Shown here one piece after another: positions 45,079 to 52,958 of a DNA stretch of 64,000 bases (positions are counted from its first letter, which is position 1; every line of letters starts with the position of its first letter). The DNA comes from Bacillota bacterium (GTDB taxonomy: Bacteria; Bacillota; Clostridia; Lachnospirales; Bianqueaceae). A program made the translations under genes and the position numbers. The stretch spans positions 1 to 64,000 of the forward strand of contig JAFRZL010000049.1 of NCBI GenBank assembly GCA_017442535.1, given 5' to 3'. The notes under the pieces were generated by a model, which was not told the origin of the DNA, searched no databases, and saw only the letters and a program-made list of their open reading frames with translations.

Positions 45079-47214
45079 ATGATGAAAACGATCAGACAGT
45101 GGTTTTGCGCGGTTCTCATCGCGGCCCTTTCAGCCACGATGTTTGCCGGATGCGCTTCCGGAGGAAAGCCCGGCACAGATTCACCCGGAGCGGAAAGCAG
45201 TGTCGGGGAAGCCTCCCGCGTTGATCCGGCGGGATCTGAGTCCGGGGAGAATGAGCTGGATACACTGTTCCAGGAGCTTACTCTGACACAGGACTCCGAC
45301 GATATCCTGACGGTGGAGCCGGCGGAGGACACTTGGAAGGAGAGCTACCCGGACGGTCTCTGCGTACGTTTTGAGGGCTTTAACGAAGCGGAGTACGCGC
45401 ATTTTCTGTCGCATCCCATCCTGAAGCAGGTGGATCCGCGGGTGAGCCGTCTGGGCGATGTATGGATCGGAAAAGGAGGGCAAACCCTCATCGACAAATA
45501 TATCCGGAATACGGATCCTTCCGCCGATGTCAGCGCGAAAACACTGTACTGCGCACTCAGAAGGGCGGCCTTACTTTACTCGGATCCCGCTTTATTCGAG
45601 TCGATACCGGAAGATGTCCGGCACAGGGATGTTTTCCTGGTAGAAAGCGAACTGTATCAGTGGGATTACGATGGGCAGGGCGAAGTGCCGTATCCCGGCT
45701 ATACCGGACCGATCATCACGAGCGGATACTATCTGATGCGGCTGGTCCCGGAGGGGGAGGAGCCGGACAGCAAAAACGTGGAATACATTATGTTCAGCGA
45801 TTACCAGCTTGTTGGAGGAGGCTCCGACGTTGAATGCAAGCAGGCTGTGGAAAAGGACGGCGTGCTGGTGACCTACGATTACATGACCAGGAAATACCTG
45901 CGGGAATTCCTGCAGGATGAAAGCCGCTATGCGTATCTGATGCGCGACTCCGAATACCATTACGAGGCACTGGTGGATTCCATTTACGGCCATACGGCTT
46001 CTGCTATGGCAGTGGAACTGGGATCGAAGGTGCTTAAAGAGGAACTGACCAGGGAAGTCTATATCTCCATTCTTTACCGGTTGCTTGCCATGCAGGAGGC
46101 CGGGTTCGCAGACTGCTATGAATCCATGGAGAGATATTACTATATCAGTCAGGCTGAGAATCTACGGGACCATGCGGTGGACGTTTTGACGGATCTTTCC
46201 GGTTATTTAAGCACCCAGGAGCTCGATCCCCTGCTTCCGGTTCCGATGTCCCGCAACCCGCTCAAAAACCTTTCACGCCTGTATAAAGAGGAACTGGCGG
46301 AATTCGCGATCGATGAATTTGAAGCATTGGGCGATTCGGCGGAAGAATCACTGACTGTCTGCACACTGATATACAAGACCGGCGTTACGAACCGTTTTCT
46401 GAGGACGCTCGCGGAGAATACGAATGAGCCAATGCTGAAAAGCGCCTGCGAGGATCTGATCCAATACAATCATACAACCTTCGGAGCGGTAGGAGACTTT
46501 ATGAAACGCTACGGCGTAAAGTCCGCGGTGGGCTTTGTGAACAGTCTGTGGGGCGTGGATACGATGGAACTGGTCAGAGGGATTCAGACGGGGGATTCCG
46601 GCGAGGCTGTGCAGGGCGTGCTGAAGACGGTGCAGGGGATCGGCGTGTATGCCCTGAAGACACTTGCCGCTTTTGTGACGGATGCCGGGGAATTCACATA
46701 CGATCTGTGCATCTTTGCCGGAGATGCCGCTGCCGATACGACAAGCCAGTATCAGAGCATGGTCTCTATGAAAGCCATTTCCGACATCGCCTATGCGCTG
46801 AGGCAGGCCATGTATCCGATCGCCACGCGTGCCTATCAGGATATCACCCCGGAGGAGATGCAGGAATTCGTCTACCTGGGACAGCTCCTGGTGATTGCCC
46901 GCGCGAGCGGAGAATACTGCTGGGAACAGCTGGTAACGAAGCACGGCGGCCTGGCGGAACTGTTCAACCTGGATAATATCGTGGCGGCGGAGAGGTATTA
47001 TGATGAAGGTCAGCAGCGCTGGAGGCAGTTGTATCTGGACTTTGATGCGATCATCACTATGGACAGGCGGACCGCGGTGACCCACTATGAAATCCCCTGG
47101 TCGAGCGGCGACGGCAGCGGAGGAGGATTCTCCGGCGGAGGCGGTGAAGGCGATGGAGGCGGCGGAGGCGGCGCCCGAGGAAATAATAGCGGCGGTGGAG
47201 GCGGCGGACGGTAA
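45079..47214 (+). CDS. Large lipoprotein with glycine-rich C-terminal tail, unknown function
   Basis: A 711-residue exported lipoprotein: signal MMKTIRQWFCAVLIAALSAT then MFAGCASGG with lipobox FAGC, followed by a Ser/Gly/Glu linker (about 27-60). The body (about 60-670) is mostly helical (KNLSRLYKEELAEFAIDEFE, RQAMYPIATRAYQDITPEEM) with Tyr-rich parts and no family that I recognise. The last 32 residues are almost only glycine (GGGFSGGGGEGDGGGGGGAR), like tails of TPM-domain membrane proteins, although no TPM domain or C-terminal membrane helix is seen. ATG 45079 or 45082 follows GAGGAAG. Closed by a strong terminator. Confidence 0.8.
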   Translation: MMKTIRQWFCAVLIAALSATMFAGCASGGKPGTDSPGAESSVGEASRVDPAGSESGENELDTLFQELTLTQDSDDILTVEPAEDTWKESYPDGLCVRFEGFNEAEYAHFLSHPILKQVDPRVSRLGDVWIGKGGQTLIDKYIRNTDPSADVSAKTLYCALRRAALLYSDPALFESIPEDVRHRDVFLVESELYQWDYDGQGEVPYPGYTGPIITSGYYLMRLVPEGEEPDSKNVEYIMFSDYQLVGGGSDVECKQAVEKDGVLVTYDYMTRKYLREFLQDESRYAYLMRDSEYHYEALVDSIYGHTASAMAVELGSKVLKEELTREVYISILYRLLAMQEAGFADCYESMERYYYISQAENLRDHAVDVLTDLSGYLSTQELDPLLPVPMSRNPLKNLSRLYKEELAEFAIDEFEALGDSAEESLTVCTLIYKTGVTNRFLRTLAENTNEPMLKSACEDLIQYNHTTFGAVGDFMKRYGVKSAVGFVNSLWGVDTMELVRGIQTGDSGEAVQGVLKTVQGIGVYALKTLAAFVTDAGEFTYDLCIFAGDAAADTTSQYQSMVSMKAISDIAYALRQAMYPIATRAYQDITPEEMQEFVYLGQLLVIARASGEYCWEQLVTKHGGLAELFNLDNIVAAERYYDEGQQRWRQLYLDFDAIITMDRRTAVTHYEIPWSSGDGSGGGFSGGGGEGDGGGGGGARGNNSGGGGGGR

Positions 47215-47669: not shown

Positions 47670-48311
47670 TTACTTGACGGAGCGGGCTTCGAGGAAGGCC
47701 TCAAAGACCTGGGCGAAGGTGTCGTTGACGTCAAAAGGCGCCTCGTAGGAAACAGAGGATTCCACCATGCAGCGGTCCAGGGCGGCAGACGTGGCGTCCG
47801 AAGCCTTGTTCAGCTGGTTCATATACTGGCGGACTTTATTGCGGTCATAGTTGATGGTACGCACGCGGCGGACGTCCACACGGTAGGCCACCTGATTGCC
47901 CTCGGCGTTGAAGCGGTAGCCGGTACCGCCTCCGGGCAGCAGCACTTCCGAACTGCGCAGGTCCGTCATGGTGGAAAACACGCGGGCGAGGGACTGGCGA
48001 CGGCCGTTCAGGCTGATTTCACTGTCCAGATGGACAGGCAGTCCAGCCTTGGCGGCGTAGATGGCTTCGGAGAGCTTCTCCTGCTCGCCGAACAGGTAAA
48101 GTGCGAAGTCCACCATTTCGGTGATGCGGTCGGCATACTCGCAGTCGGGAACGACGGGGATAACCTCATTCTCCAGCTCGGGCATAACCTTTTTGTGAAG
48201 GTATGTGTTCTCGACCGTGACGATATTGTCCTCCGTCATGAGGATGGACTCGGCCTCGTCCATCAGAGACTGGAGTTTATTTTGAAAACGGAAAGCTTCT
48301 TTCAGATTCAT
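47670..48311 (-). CDS. Uncharacterised soluble protein
   Basis: A 213-residue protein, no signal or membrane helix. It starts MNLKEAFRFQNKLQSLMDEA and has a helical first third, a central EISLNGRRQSLARVFSTMTD and a strand-rich RVDVRRVRTINYDRNKVRQY. No catalytic motif or family is recognised; the text resembles anonymous proteins of Clostridia. The start at 48311 is 7 bases after AGGAGG; an ATG 18 bases upstream would include the ribosome site. Likely promoter at 48351-48379 (TTGTTT-17-TATAAT, reverse strand). Confidence 0.75.
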   Translation of the reverse strand: MNLKEAFRFQNKLQSLMDEAESILMTEDNIVTVENTYLHKKVMPELENEVIPVVPDCEYADRITEMVDFALYLFGEQEKLSEAIYAAKAGLPVHLDSEISLNGRRQSLARVFSTMTDLRSSEVLLPGGGTGYRFNAEGNQVAYRVDVRRVRTINYDRNKVRQYMNQLNKASDATSAALDRCMVESSVSYEAPFDVNDTFAQVFEAFLEARSVK

Positions 48312-48350
48312 TTCAGTACCTCCTGACAATCAATGTTTGATGATGGATCC

Positions 48351-48641: not shown

Positions 48642-49739
48642 ATGGAGAGAGACTTATATCTCGTTCTTGAAAACGGAGAGGTTTTCAGGGGCAAGCGCTT
48701 CGGCGCGGAGGGAGAGGCCGCTGGTGAAGTCGTTTTTCATACAGGTATGGTGGGATATCTGGAGACGCTGACCGATCCCGGGTATTGTGGACAGATTGTA
48801 GTACAGACTTTTCCGCTGATCGGGAATTACGGTTTGATTCCGGATGAACAGATCGGCGATAGGGCCTATTTAAAAGCTTATATTGTGAGAGAGTGGTGTC
48901 AATCTCCTTCTAATTATCGCAGTGAAGGAACGGTTGACGCTTTTTTAAAGCAGCAGGGTGTGGTCGGGCTGTATGACATCGATACGCGCGAGCTGACCAG
49001 GATCCTCCGTGAAAACGGGACGATGAAGGGGGCGCTTGCCGAGTCGCCGGAGAGGGCACACGAGGTGCTCACAGCTTTTATCAAAGAGGATAAAGCCACG
49101 GAAGGGCATGCGAGCAAAGTCGAGCTGGTGACGCGCCGGGAGGTGCTGACCGTGCCGGCCAAGGGCGAGACGAGGTTCAGAGTTGCCGTGATGGATTACG
49201 GCTGCACCCGGAATCTGGTCCGCATGCTGACTGAGCGGGGCATGGAAGTGACGCTTTTCCCGGCGGGAACAGCGGCACTGGACGTCCTTGTGACGGATCC
49301 CGACGGAATCATCCTGAGTAACGGCCCGTTCGACCCGGAGGAAGACGCCGAGCTCATATTTGAAGCACAGAGGCTGGTATACTCCGGCAAGCCGCTGATG
49401 GGAGTGGATTTCGGCCATCTGCTGCTCGCGCTCGCGAGAGGCGCCCGGATGACAAAACTTAAGCATGGGCACCGCGGAGCCAACCAGCCCGTGAAGCATC
49501 TGCCGAGCGACCGCGTCTATATTGCAAGCCATGCCCAGGGGTATGCGGTCGACGCGGATTTCCTGCCGATGAATGCCTGGGCCACCTTTGAGAACCTGAA
49601 TGATAAAACGGTGGAAGGCCTGCAGTATACGGATATTCCTGCCTTCAGCGTGCAGTTCATCCCTGAGGACGGACGCGGTAAATCAACGACGGGCTTCCTC
49701 TTTGACCAGTTCGAGAAGTTCATGAAAGACGCGCAGTAA
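48642..49739 (+). CDS. carA: Carbamoyl-phosphate synthase small subunit with degenerate glutaminase site
   Basis: A 365-residue CarA homologue. The N-terminal domain (1-150) is normal (HTGMVGYLETLTDPGYCGQI, FPLIGNYG). The class I amidotransferase domain (about 180-360) aligns over its full length but its active site is lost: the nucleophile motif G-I-C-x-G-H-Q reads GVDFGHL, with Asp256 for Cys; the HPE motif reads IPE, with Ile340 for His and Glu342 kept; QNHGY reads HAQGY; SNGPGDP reads SNGPFDP. So glutamine hydrolysis is not expected, and ammonia should be the nitrogen source. AGAGGAGGACC precedes ATG 48642. Followed by carB after 18 bases. Confidence 0.93.
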   Translation: MERDLYLVLENGEVFRGKRFGAEGEAAGEVVFHTGMVGYLETLTDPGYCGQIVVQTFPLIGNYGLIPDEQIGDRAYLKAYIVREWCQSPSNYRSEGTVDAFLKQQGVVGLYDIDTRELTRILRENGTMKGALAESPERAHEVLTAFIKEDKATEGHASKVELVTRREVLTVPAKGETRFRVAVMDYGCTRNLVRMLTERGMEVTLFPAGTAALDVLVTDPDGIILSNGPFDPEEDAELIFEAQRLVYSGKPLMGVDFGHLLLALARGARMTKLKHGHRGANQPVKHLPSDRVYIASHAQGYAVDADFLPMNAWATFENLNDKTVEGLQYTDIPAFSVQFIPEDGRGKSTTGFLFDQFEKFMKDAQ

Positions 49740-49757: not shown

Positions 49758-52700
49758 ATGCCACGAAATAAAGACTTGAAAAAAGTAATGGTGATCGGAT
49801 CCGGCCCCATTGTGATCGGACAGGCGGCGGAATTTGATTACGCGGGCACGCAGGCCTGCCGCGCACTGCAGGAAGAGGGGCTGGAAGTCGTACTGATCAA
49901 CTCCAACCCCGCGACGATCATGACGGATGAAGCGATGGCGGATCATATCTACATCGAACCGCTGACACTGGAGACGGTTAAGCGGATCATCGAAAAAGAG
50001 CGCCCGGACAGCATCCTGTCCACATTGGGCGGACAGACCGGACTGACCCTGTCCATGCAGCTGGCCCGTGAAGGCTTCCTGGAAAGCCATGGCGTGAAGC
50101 TCCTGGGTGCCAAGCCCGAAACGATCGACAAAGCCGAGGACCGGCAGTCCTTTAAGGATACGATGGAGTCCATCCATCAGCCCTGCATCCCCTCCAAGGT
50201 CGTGACGACGCTGGAGGACGGCCTGGCCTATGCGGAAGAAATCGGCTATCCTGTGATCATCCGGCCCGCGTTCACCCTGGGCGGCACGGGCGGCGGTATC
50301 TGCCATAATGTCGAGGAGATGAAAGAAATCTGCGCCAATGGTCTGCGCCTGTCGCCGATCACGCAGGTGCTGGTCGAAAAATGCATTTCCGGCTGGAAAG
50401 AAATCGAATTCGAAGTCATCCGCGATGCCAAGGGCAACAGTATAACGGTCTGCAGCATGGAAAATGTGGACCCGGTGGGCGTGCATACCGGTGATTCGAT
50501 CGTACTGGCACCTGCGGTCACACTCTCCCATGATGAATACCAGATGCTTCGTACCGCTGCGCTGGATATCGTGGAGGCGCTGGGAGTGGAGGGCGGCTGC
50601 AATGTGCAGTTCGCGCTCTATCCGGAGAGCAGGGAATACGCGGTTATTGAGGTCAATCCGCGCGTATCCCGTTCATCGGCGCTTGCTTCCAAGGCGACCG
50701 GATATCCGATCGCTAAGGTGGCGACCAAGATCGCGATCGGTTATACACTGGATGAGATCCGGAACGCGGTAACCGGTACGACCTATGCATGCTTCGAACC
50801 CACGATCGACTATGCGGTGGTTAAGCTTCCCAAATGGCCCTTTGACAAATTCGTTTATGCCAAGCGGACGCTCGGAACGCAGATGAAGGCAACGGGCGAA
50901 GTCATGGCGATCGGCACGAGCTTTGAACAGGCCATGATGAAAGCCGTCCGCGGAGCCGAGATCGGGCTGGATACGATGAACCTGCCCAAGCTCGCGGAGC
51001 TTAGCGACGAGAAACTGATCGCGCGTATGGAAGACTGCGATGACGAACGCATTTTCATCATTTACGAGGCGCTGAAGCGCGGCGTCAGCGTGGAGCGTGT
51101 GCATGAAATCACGATGATCGACGAGTGGTTCCTGTATAAGTTCCTGAACCTGATCGATTATGAGCGCAGACTGCAGGCGGAGCCCATGACTGAAGAGCTC
51201 TATCATGAAGGCAAGAAACTGGGATATCCTGACAAGGCGATCGCCCGCCTGAGCAGCAAGAGCCTGCCCCGTCACGAAAATGCCGTCTTTAAGATGGTGG
51301 ATACCTGCGCGGCTGAATATGCGGCCCAGACACCGTATTTCTACTCCACATATGACGAGGAAAACGAGGCGGAGGAATTCATCCGCAACCGCCATGACTC
51401 CAAGCCGACGGTGATCGTATTCGGTTCCGGGCCGATCCGGATCGGTCAGGGCATCGAATTCGACTATGCTTCGGTGCACTGCGTGTGGGCTCTGAAGAAA
51501 GCAGGCTTCCAGGTCGTCATTGTCAATAACAATCCCGAGACGGTTTCCACGGACTTTGATACGGCCGACCGCCTGTATTTTGAGCCGTTGACGCCTGAGG
51601 ATGTGATGAACATCATCCGGGTCGAGAAACCCTACGGCGTGGTGGTGGCTTTTGGCGGACAGACGGCTATCAAGCTGACCAAGTTCCTGGACGAGCAGGG
51701 CGTACGAATCCTGGGGACCCAGGCCGACAGCATCGACGCGGCCGAGGACCGCGAACGCTTCGACGCGCTGCTCGAGAAGCTCAAGATCAAGCGCCCGCAG
51801 GGACATACGGTCTTTACGACGGAAGAGGCTCTCCGTGCGGCCCACGATCTGGACTTCCCGGTGCTGATGAGACCTTCTTACGTGCTGGGCGGCCAGAACA
51901 TGATTATCGCGTTCTCTGACGAGGATATCGTGGAGTACATGCAGATCATCCTTTCCCACAATATCGAGAATCCGGTTCTGATCGACAAGTATTATATGGG
52001 GACGGAGATCGAGGTGGATGCCATCTGTGACGGTGAAGACATCCTGATCCCCGGTATCATGGAGCATATCGAGCGCGCGGGAGTGCATTCCGGCGACTCC
52101 ATCGCAGTCTACCCCGCCTGGAATCTGAGTGACAATCTGCGTAACAAAATCGTGAATCATTCCCGCAAGTTGGCGCTGGCGCTGAAAACCATGGGCCTGG
52201 TCAACATCCAGTACGTAGTATTTGAAAACGAGGTCTATGTGATCGAGGTCAATCCGCGCTCATCCCGTACGATCCCCTATATCAGCAAGGTTTCCGGCGT
52301 GCCGATGGTGGACCTGGCGACCCGCTGCATGCTGGGCGAGAAGCTCAGCAATATGGGTTACGGCACGGGCCTGTACCGCCGCCCCAAATACATGTGCGTC
52401 AAGGTCCCGGTCTTCAGCTTTGAGAAATTGATCGACCTGGATGTACAGCTTGGCCCCGAAATGAAGTCCACCGGTGAAGTGCTGGGTATCGGCCGTACGC
52501 TCGAAGAAGCTTTGTACAAGGGCCTCGTGGCTGCCGGCTACAAGATGAAGAAATCGGGAGGCATCTTTATCACGGTCCGCGACCAGGATAAGGGCGAAAT
52601 CGCCGAAATCGCTGAAAAATACTACCAGATGGGCTTCCGTCTGTACGCTACCCGCGGCACCGCTGAGCTCCTGGAGGACGAGGGCATGCCGGTCATGGTC

Positions 52701-52958
52701 GTCCCCAAGATCTACAAGAACGCCAAATACAATTCCATGACGCTGGTGGAGAGCGGCGAAATCAATTATATAATCTCTTCGTCCAAGAAGGGCCGCCTGC
52801 CGCAGCGCGACAGCGTGAAAATCCGCCGCAAAGCCGTGGAGCACGCGATCCCCTGCCTGACCTCTCTGGACACCGCGAATGCTCTGGCAGACAGCCTGAT
52901 GAGCCACTATTCTCAGGAGAACACCGAGCTGGTGGAACTGAAGGATATGAAGGACTGA
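49758..52958 (+). CDS. carB: Carbamoyl-phosphate synthase large subunit
   Basis: A 1066-residue enzyme (E. coli form 1073) making carbamoyl phosphate from bicarbonate, ammonia and two ATP. Two homologous halves each hold an ATP-grasp domain: [25 protein letters not shown] and [24 protein letters not shown] begin them; [22 protein letters not shown] and [22 protein letters not shown] are the paired metal/ATP blocks. The C-terminal MGS-like allosteric domain (about 935-1060) has [13 protein letters not shown]. No active-site loss is evident, unlike its partner CarA. Co-transcribed with carA; ends before a strong terminator. Confidence 0.97.
   Translation: [1066 protein letters not shown]

Follow-up and report, generated by a model that had tools for sequence, protein, structure and literature searches.

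A CarA homologue with a predicted dead glutaminase site beside an intact CarB: a probable ammonia-fed carbamoyl phosphate synthetase in Bacillota

What can a small subunit of carbamoyl phosphate synthetase (CPS) do when its glutaminase site seems to have been taken apart, and the synthase subunit encoded beside it has not? The question is raised by a carA gene in the window, by which we mean the whole 64,000-nucleotide stretch analysed here (contig JAFRZL010000049.1 of a Bacillota bacterium, a gut-type anaerobe). The gene lies on the forward strand at 48642–49739, an open frame of 365 codons for a protein of 365 aa that scores 356 bits against TIGR01368 (cut-off 307) and 359 bits against NF009475. 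Both Pfam domains are present: the N-terminal CPSase_sm_chain domain (PF00988, 48660–49034, forward strand), where 3 of 31 conserved positions are changed, including the glutamine-site Ser47, which is Gly, and the class-I glutamine amidotransferase domain (PF00117, residues 183–359, 49188–49718, forward strand), which appears to be catalytically dead. By the ORF positions, the carA stop is separated by 18 bases from the start of carB (49758–52958, forward strand), a synthase subunit of 1066 aa that is full-length with the conserved residues of TIGR01369. By score, by domains and by its carB neighbour the protein belongs to the TIGR01368 and NF009475 families. Of the Cys-His-Glu triad of a glutamine-hydrolyzing CarA, however, only the Glu is left, the Cys being replaced by Asp and the His by Ile. 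Judged from these residues, it is a CarA homologue to which the name 'glutamine-hydrolyzing' should not apply, and since its score lies above the NCBI family cut-off, automatic annotation will misname it so. There were no pyrimidine or arginine genes beside the pair among the Pfam/NCBIfam family matches of its neighbours, and no Rfam match that would point to an RNA regulator near carA. Two ORFs in the vicinity, 45079–47214 (711 aa) and 47670–48329 (219 aa), have no Pfam/NCBIfam match.

The damage was assessed in the numbering of E. coli CarA, verified on the K-12 protein, at 72 positions where 141 intact CarAs agree to at least 97%. The window CarA breaks 15 of the 72, as compared to a median of 0 and a maximum of 3 in the intact proteins (n=141), and 10 of the 15 belong to the glutamine site. 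In the CarA alignment, Gly47 replaces Ser47 (S47G, 48780–48782) and Thr189 replaces the invariant Lys202 (K202T, 49206–49208), both on the forward strand like all the positions that follow. The usual NGPGDP reads NGPFDP (G243F, 49320–49337), and the nucleophile elbow, usually GICLGHQ, is GVDFGHL (49401–49421) through C269D (49407–49409), L270F (49410–49412) and Q273L (49419–49421). QNHGY is found as HAQGY (49530–49544; Q310H, N311A, H312Q), and FHPE as FIPE (49656–49667), with H353I at 49659–49661 and Glu355 kept at 49665–49667. The invariant Pro360 is replaced by Lys347 (P360K, 49680–49682), which adjoins the tunnel residue Gly359, kept as Gly346. The initial annotation had described Asp256 (GAT, 49407) in place of the Cys, Ile340 (ATC, 49659) in place of the His, a kept Glu342, and the motifs GVDFGHL, NGPFDP, HAQGY and FIPED; all of this is read in the sequence where it was placed, and the glutamine site has lost more residues than were noticed then. 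We take L270 and, presumably, Q273 to be the two glutamine-binding positions whose loss goes with ammonia use. In CPS I and in Alcolapia CPS III, two such positions have been lost in enzymes that use ammonia (PMC4655335, PMC7657897), and Cys269 and His353 are essential to glutamine hydrolysis in CPS (PMC6245113). A sequencing or assembly error as the cause was rejected: many codons differ, and C269D and Q273L are common to relatives, so that such an error is not a reasonable explanation.

Outside this site the protein is predicted to fold as a CarA. The AlphaFold2 model has a pLDDT of 91 and a pTM of 0.90, and superimposes on E. coli CarA (1cs0_B) with a TM of 0.93 and on CPS1 with a TM of 0.86. 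The window CarB keeps every position at which 129 other CarBs are at least 98% conserved, the ammonia-gate residues C232, A251 and A314 among them; a few rows of this set, one of the window's own CarB included, are second copies of the partners of dead CarAs, but so small a number does not account for the conservation. The initial annotation's view of a conserved fold outside the site and of a conserved, full-length CarB is thereby borne out. Against the same 129 CarBs no compensating change in CarB, or adaptation to low ammonia, was found. At the level of sequence it is strongly supported that the glutaminase was lost while the synthase subunit stayed intact.

The window genome (G000; 2.25 Mb in 52 contigs, 79.7% complete) also has a second carA, with GICLGHQ, QNHGY and FHPEA all intact and 45% identity to the window CarA, in a complete arginine operon with the order argG-argC-unknown-argJ-argB-argD-argF-carA-carB on contig C1. 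As both are in the same genome, the window carA is a paralogue, and a loss of the organism's only CPS was rejected on account of this second intact carA-carB. A carbamoyltransferase-family gene is also present on contig C34, and is probably pyrB because argF sits on C1. The arginine-operon carB encodes a CarB–DapF fusion (L083:5291-9325; 1344 aa, CarB 1–1047, DapF 1068–1342). CarB ORFs of this length (about 1330–1345 aa) stand beside carA in numerous relatives (G001, G002, G216, L012, L017, L060, L068), and in several of these an LL-diaminopimelate aminotransferase-like gene comes next.

Within the same family, the genomes G004 (E14__bin111) and G005 (Clostridiales bacterium UBA1390), 94% and 96% complete, have dead CarAs with the C269D and Q273L of the window, and with the His replaced by Arg and the Glu by Gly. 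The three CarAs form one clade (support 100/99 on the careful tree, 99 on the larger quick tree), and their CarBs likewise (support 100). The initial annotation had proposed to look for a conserved Asp256/Ile340 clade; the Asp is indeed common to a supported clade, but the Ile is not. In both G004 and G005 the dead carA adjoins the single carB of the genome, and an orphan intact carA, without a carB, lies in a glnA-regulator-carA-pyrG-dapL-purF operon, the gene names being read by eye from the translations and not by family search. The orphan CarAs keep all glutamine-site residues. The operon at L102:5763-13078 and L104:6093-13294, which combines glutamine synthetase, a protein like a response regulator, carA, CTP synthase, LL-DAP aminotransferase and PurF, suggests that several enzymes that use glutamine are under a shared nitrogen control. 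G006 and G007, both of the same genus, have one carA each, and it is intact.

Damaged glutaminase domains were found in 11 of 152 distinct CarAs, which is no unbiased frequency, the sample being from Bacillota and sorted by how closely its members resemble the window CarA; all 11 have open full-length frames. Besides those of the window, G004 and G005 they are L008 (C269S, H353N), L012 (C269S), L017 (C269G, E355D), L060 (C269N, H312N), L068 (C269G, H353D), G216 (C269G, H353T), G369 (C269G, H353Y) and G244, where the Cys is kept together with H353Q, S47G and Q273L. No damage was seen in a further forty CarAs of the order. This order is probably Lachnospirales: the CarA of one member, G255, is the same as that of Clostridium sp. 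ASF356, which belongs there. The number of separate losses, counted on CarA trees, is 5 on the careful tree (4–6 in the bootstraps, never 1) and 7 on the larger quick tree; the corresponding count on a CarB tree was set aside, because CarBs entered there more than once had rows marked as intact. In six genomes no CarA other than the dead one was found: G369 (99% complete), G216 (89%) and G392–G395, which are the genomes of L008, L012, L017 and L060. The second, intact carA that had been proposed as a check is thus present in the window genome, G004 and G005, but was not found in these six. All six have ATC/OTC-family genes, two in 4 of the 6 and one in G216 and G393. Carbamate kinase, as a common alternative source, was above its cut-off in G392 only, with 287 bits in G369 (cut-off 358) and below 36 bits in the others.

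Some unusual arrangements of the two subunits were observed in the same set. A second, deeply divergent carB occurs in G001 (C1:15739-15972) and G002 (C78:14272-14505), where the single carA is located elsewhere, beside the other carB. Similar divergent CarBs in G008–G011, G015 and G017 make up a separate clade, which may act without a small subunit. At L272:4197-5258 (G244:C19) a CarA-like protein with intact glutaminase motifs and no carB beside it lies in an apparent non-ribosomal peptide cluster.

The dead carA genes are under purifying selection. Between G004 and G005 the dN/dS is 0.082 for the dead CarA, 0.057 for the intact CarA and 0.017 for CarB, and between the dead CarAs of L012 and L060 it is 0.118. 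The dN of the glutaminase domain, again between G004 and G005, is 0.10 for the dead pair and 0.093 for the intact pair; dS is near saturation in some of the domain splits, and a domain-wise omega is unreliable. The ratio of glutaminase-domain to CarB divergence has a median of 1.37 and a maximum of 1.66 in 92 intact pairs, and is 1.68–2.29 in eight dead CarAs, including 2.17 for the window. It is 1.60 in G216, 1.52 in G244 and 1.26 in G369, where the low value makes it look like a recent loss. The N-domain/CarB ratios of the dead CarAs other than the window's are within the intact range, and the excess divergence of the dead CarAs is mainly in the glutaminase domain. Two observations on the window CarA speak against an ammonia-fed enzyme: its N-domain ratio, 1.79, is higher than in all 92 intact pairs, and no other end branch in the CarA tree of 152 rows is as long as its own, 1.02.

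The explanation that we consider probable is that these genes encode a two-subunit CPS without glutamine hydrolysis, which runs on free ammonia and has CarA as a structural or regulatory subunit. The dead CarA would fold and probably dock on CarB, so as to stabilise it or control its activity, and would neither bind nor split glutamine. Ammonia would enter from solution, and CarB would carry out its normal two-ATP reaction from bicarbonate and ammonia. We infer that the complex forms, is active and uses ammonia as its cellular substrate, and that CarA may be retained because it stabilises CarB, serves allostery or gives ammonia access. Ammonia is the substrate from which CarB forms carbamoyl phosphate (PMC6245113), and E. 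coli CPS is reported to stay normally active on external ammonia when its tunnel is blocked or perforated (PMC4655335), which implies that a complex with a dead CarA should be ammonia-fed. Against this stands the very high, probably unphysiological, ammonia concentration needed by E. coli CPS (PMC6245113), and with the intact CarAB in the window genome, the flux of the window copy may not be needed. A tunnel blockage of the CPS1 kind was looked for and is absent: the Gly293 position is Ala in the window CarA, as in most relatives, dead and intact, and since it is not Gln the old tunnel need not be closed. The initial annotation had offered an ammonia-fed CarAB or a CarA kept only for structure; the former is the best explanation here, and the latter is no separate alternative, because an ammonia-fed enzyme needs a structural CarA.

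The gene arrangement suggests, as the main rival, that subunits are swapped: one CarB would be served by an intact CarA in glutamine mode or by the dead CarA in ammonia mode or idle, with the dead CarA as a competing or regulatory subunit. G004 and G005, where the only carB adjoins the dead carA and an orphan CarA keeps every glutamine-site residue, are what this would look like, but the intact carA of the window genome has its own carB, and no second CarA was found in the six other dead-CarA genomes. We hold such swapping to be rather unlikely. With a similarly low probability, some members of the family may have a switchable synthetase, where ammonia or glutamine is chosen through the small subunit on a shared CarB.

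It is conceivable that CarA is dispensable and decaying into a pseudogene, with CarB idle or acting on ammonia by itself. The long branch of the window CarA and the raised divergence of the glutaminase domain would agree with such a decay, but frames are open and full-length in 11 of 11 damaged CarAs, dN/dS is 0.08–0.12, the N-domain is mostly conserved, the fold is predicted with high confidence and the dead state has been kept across two genera. A pseudogene was judged unlikely from the dN/dS and the open frames, and we consider decay improbable. That the pocket has taken on another reaction or ligand, in which Asp256 has acquired a function, could explain why window, G004 and G005 have the same residue at the nucleophile position. 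The His is replaced differently among them, by Ile or Arg, G004 and G005 no longer have the Glu, and the rest of the site varies from member to member, unlike a conserved new site; a re-used pocket is very improbable.

If the ammonia-fed CarAB is confirmed, an ammonia-only CPS has evolved several times in bacteria by disabling of the glutaminase, sometimes apparently in the only CPS of the organism. A 2015 structural paper has all CPS types except CPS1 using glutamine (PMC4655335), and no bacterial CarA of the glutaminase-dead type was found in the open-licence literature searched. The bacterial cases would be independent replicates of the CPS1 transition, and a test of why a dead domain is kept. 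They would also make the automatic name wrong for a recognisable gene set, and would hint at how the synthesis of pyrimidines and arginine is coupled directly to ammonium in some anaerobes.

CPS I uses ammonia and not glutamine as substrate, and is activated by N-acetylglutamate. The glutaminase domain of vertebrate CPS1 is, as in the window CarA, kept but inactive, with the Cys replaced (Ser294 in human) and the glutamine-binding residues changed beside an intact synthase part (PMC4655335, PMC7657897). The inactive domain by which CPS I is recognised, with the Cys and/or glutamine-binding residues gone, is thus found in the window CarA. The two differ in that CPS1 is one fused chain and CarAB two genes, that the window CarA has lost both Cys and His and has more of the site erased, and that it lacks the tunnel-blocking Gln that CPS1 has at the Gly293 position; the parallel to CPS1 drawn in the initial annotation holds for the inactive domain, but not for the blocked tunnel or the fused chain. 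The loss in bacteria arose independently of CPS1, and repeatedly. Alcolapia CPS III is a further parallel. Compared to E. coli CPS, the window CarAB has the same domain order, fold (TM 0.93), family scores, carA-carB order and CarB residues, but E. coli CPS has the catalytic Cys and His and the glutamine-site residues, and the window CarA is without Cys, His and most of the site. In the E. coli CarA mutants C269S (1c30) and G359F (1m6v), the glutaminase or the tunnel is likewise disabled in a folded small subunit; these changes are engineered, whereas that of the window is natural and has been kept. The NAD synthetases are likewise a bacterial amidotransferase family, and free ammonia is argued to serve some of them as the donor under physiological conditions (PMC3376133). 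Their ammonia-using forms have no glutaminase domain and are taken as ancestral, whereas in the window CarA the domain is kept and disabled, a derived loss.
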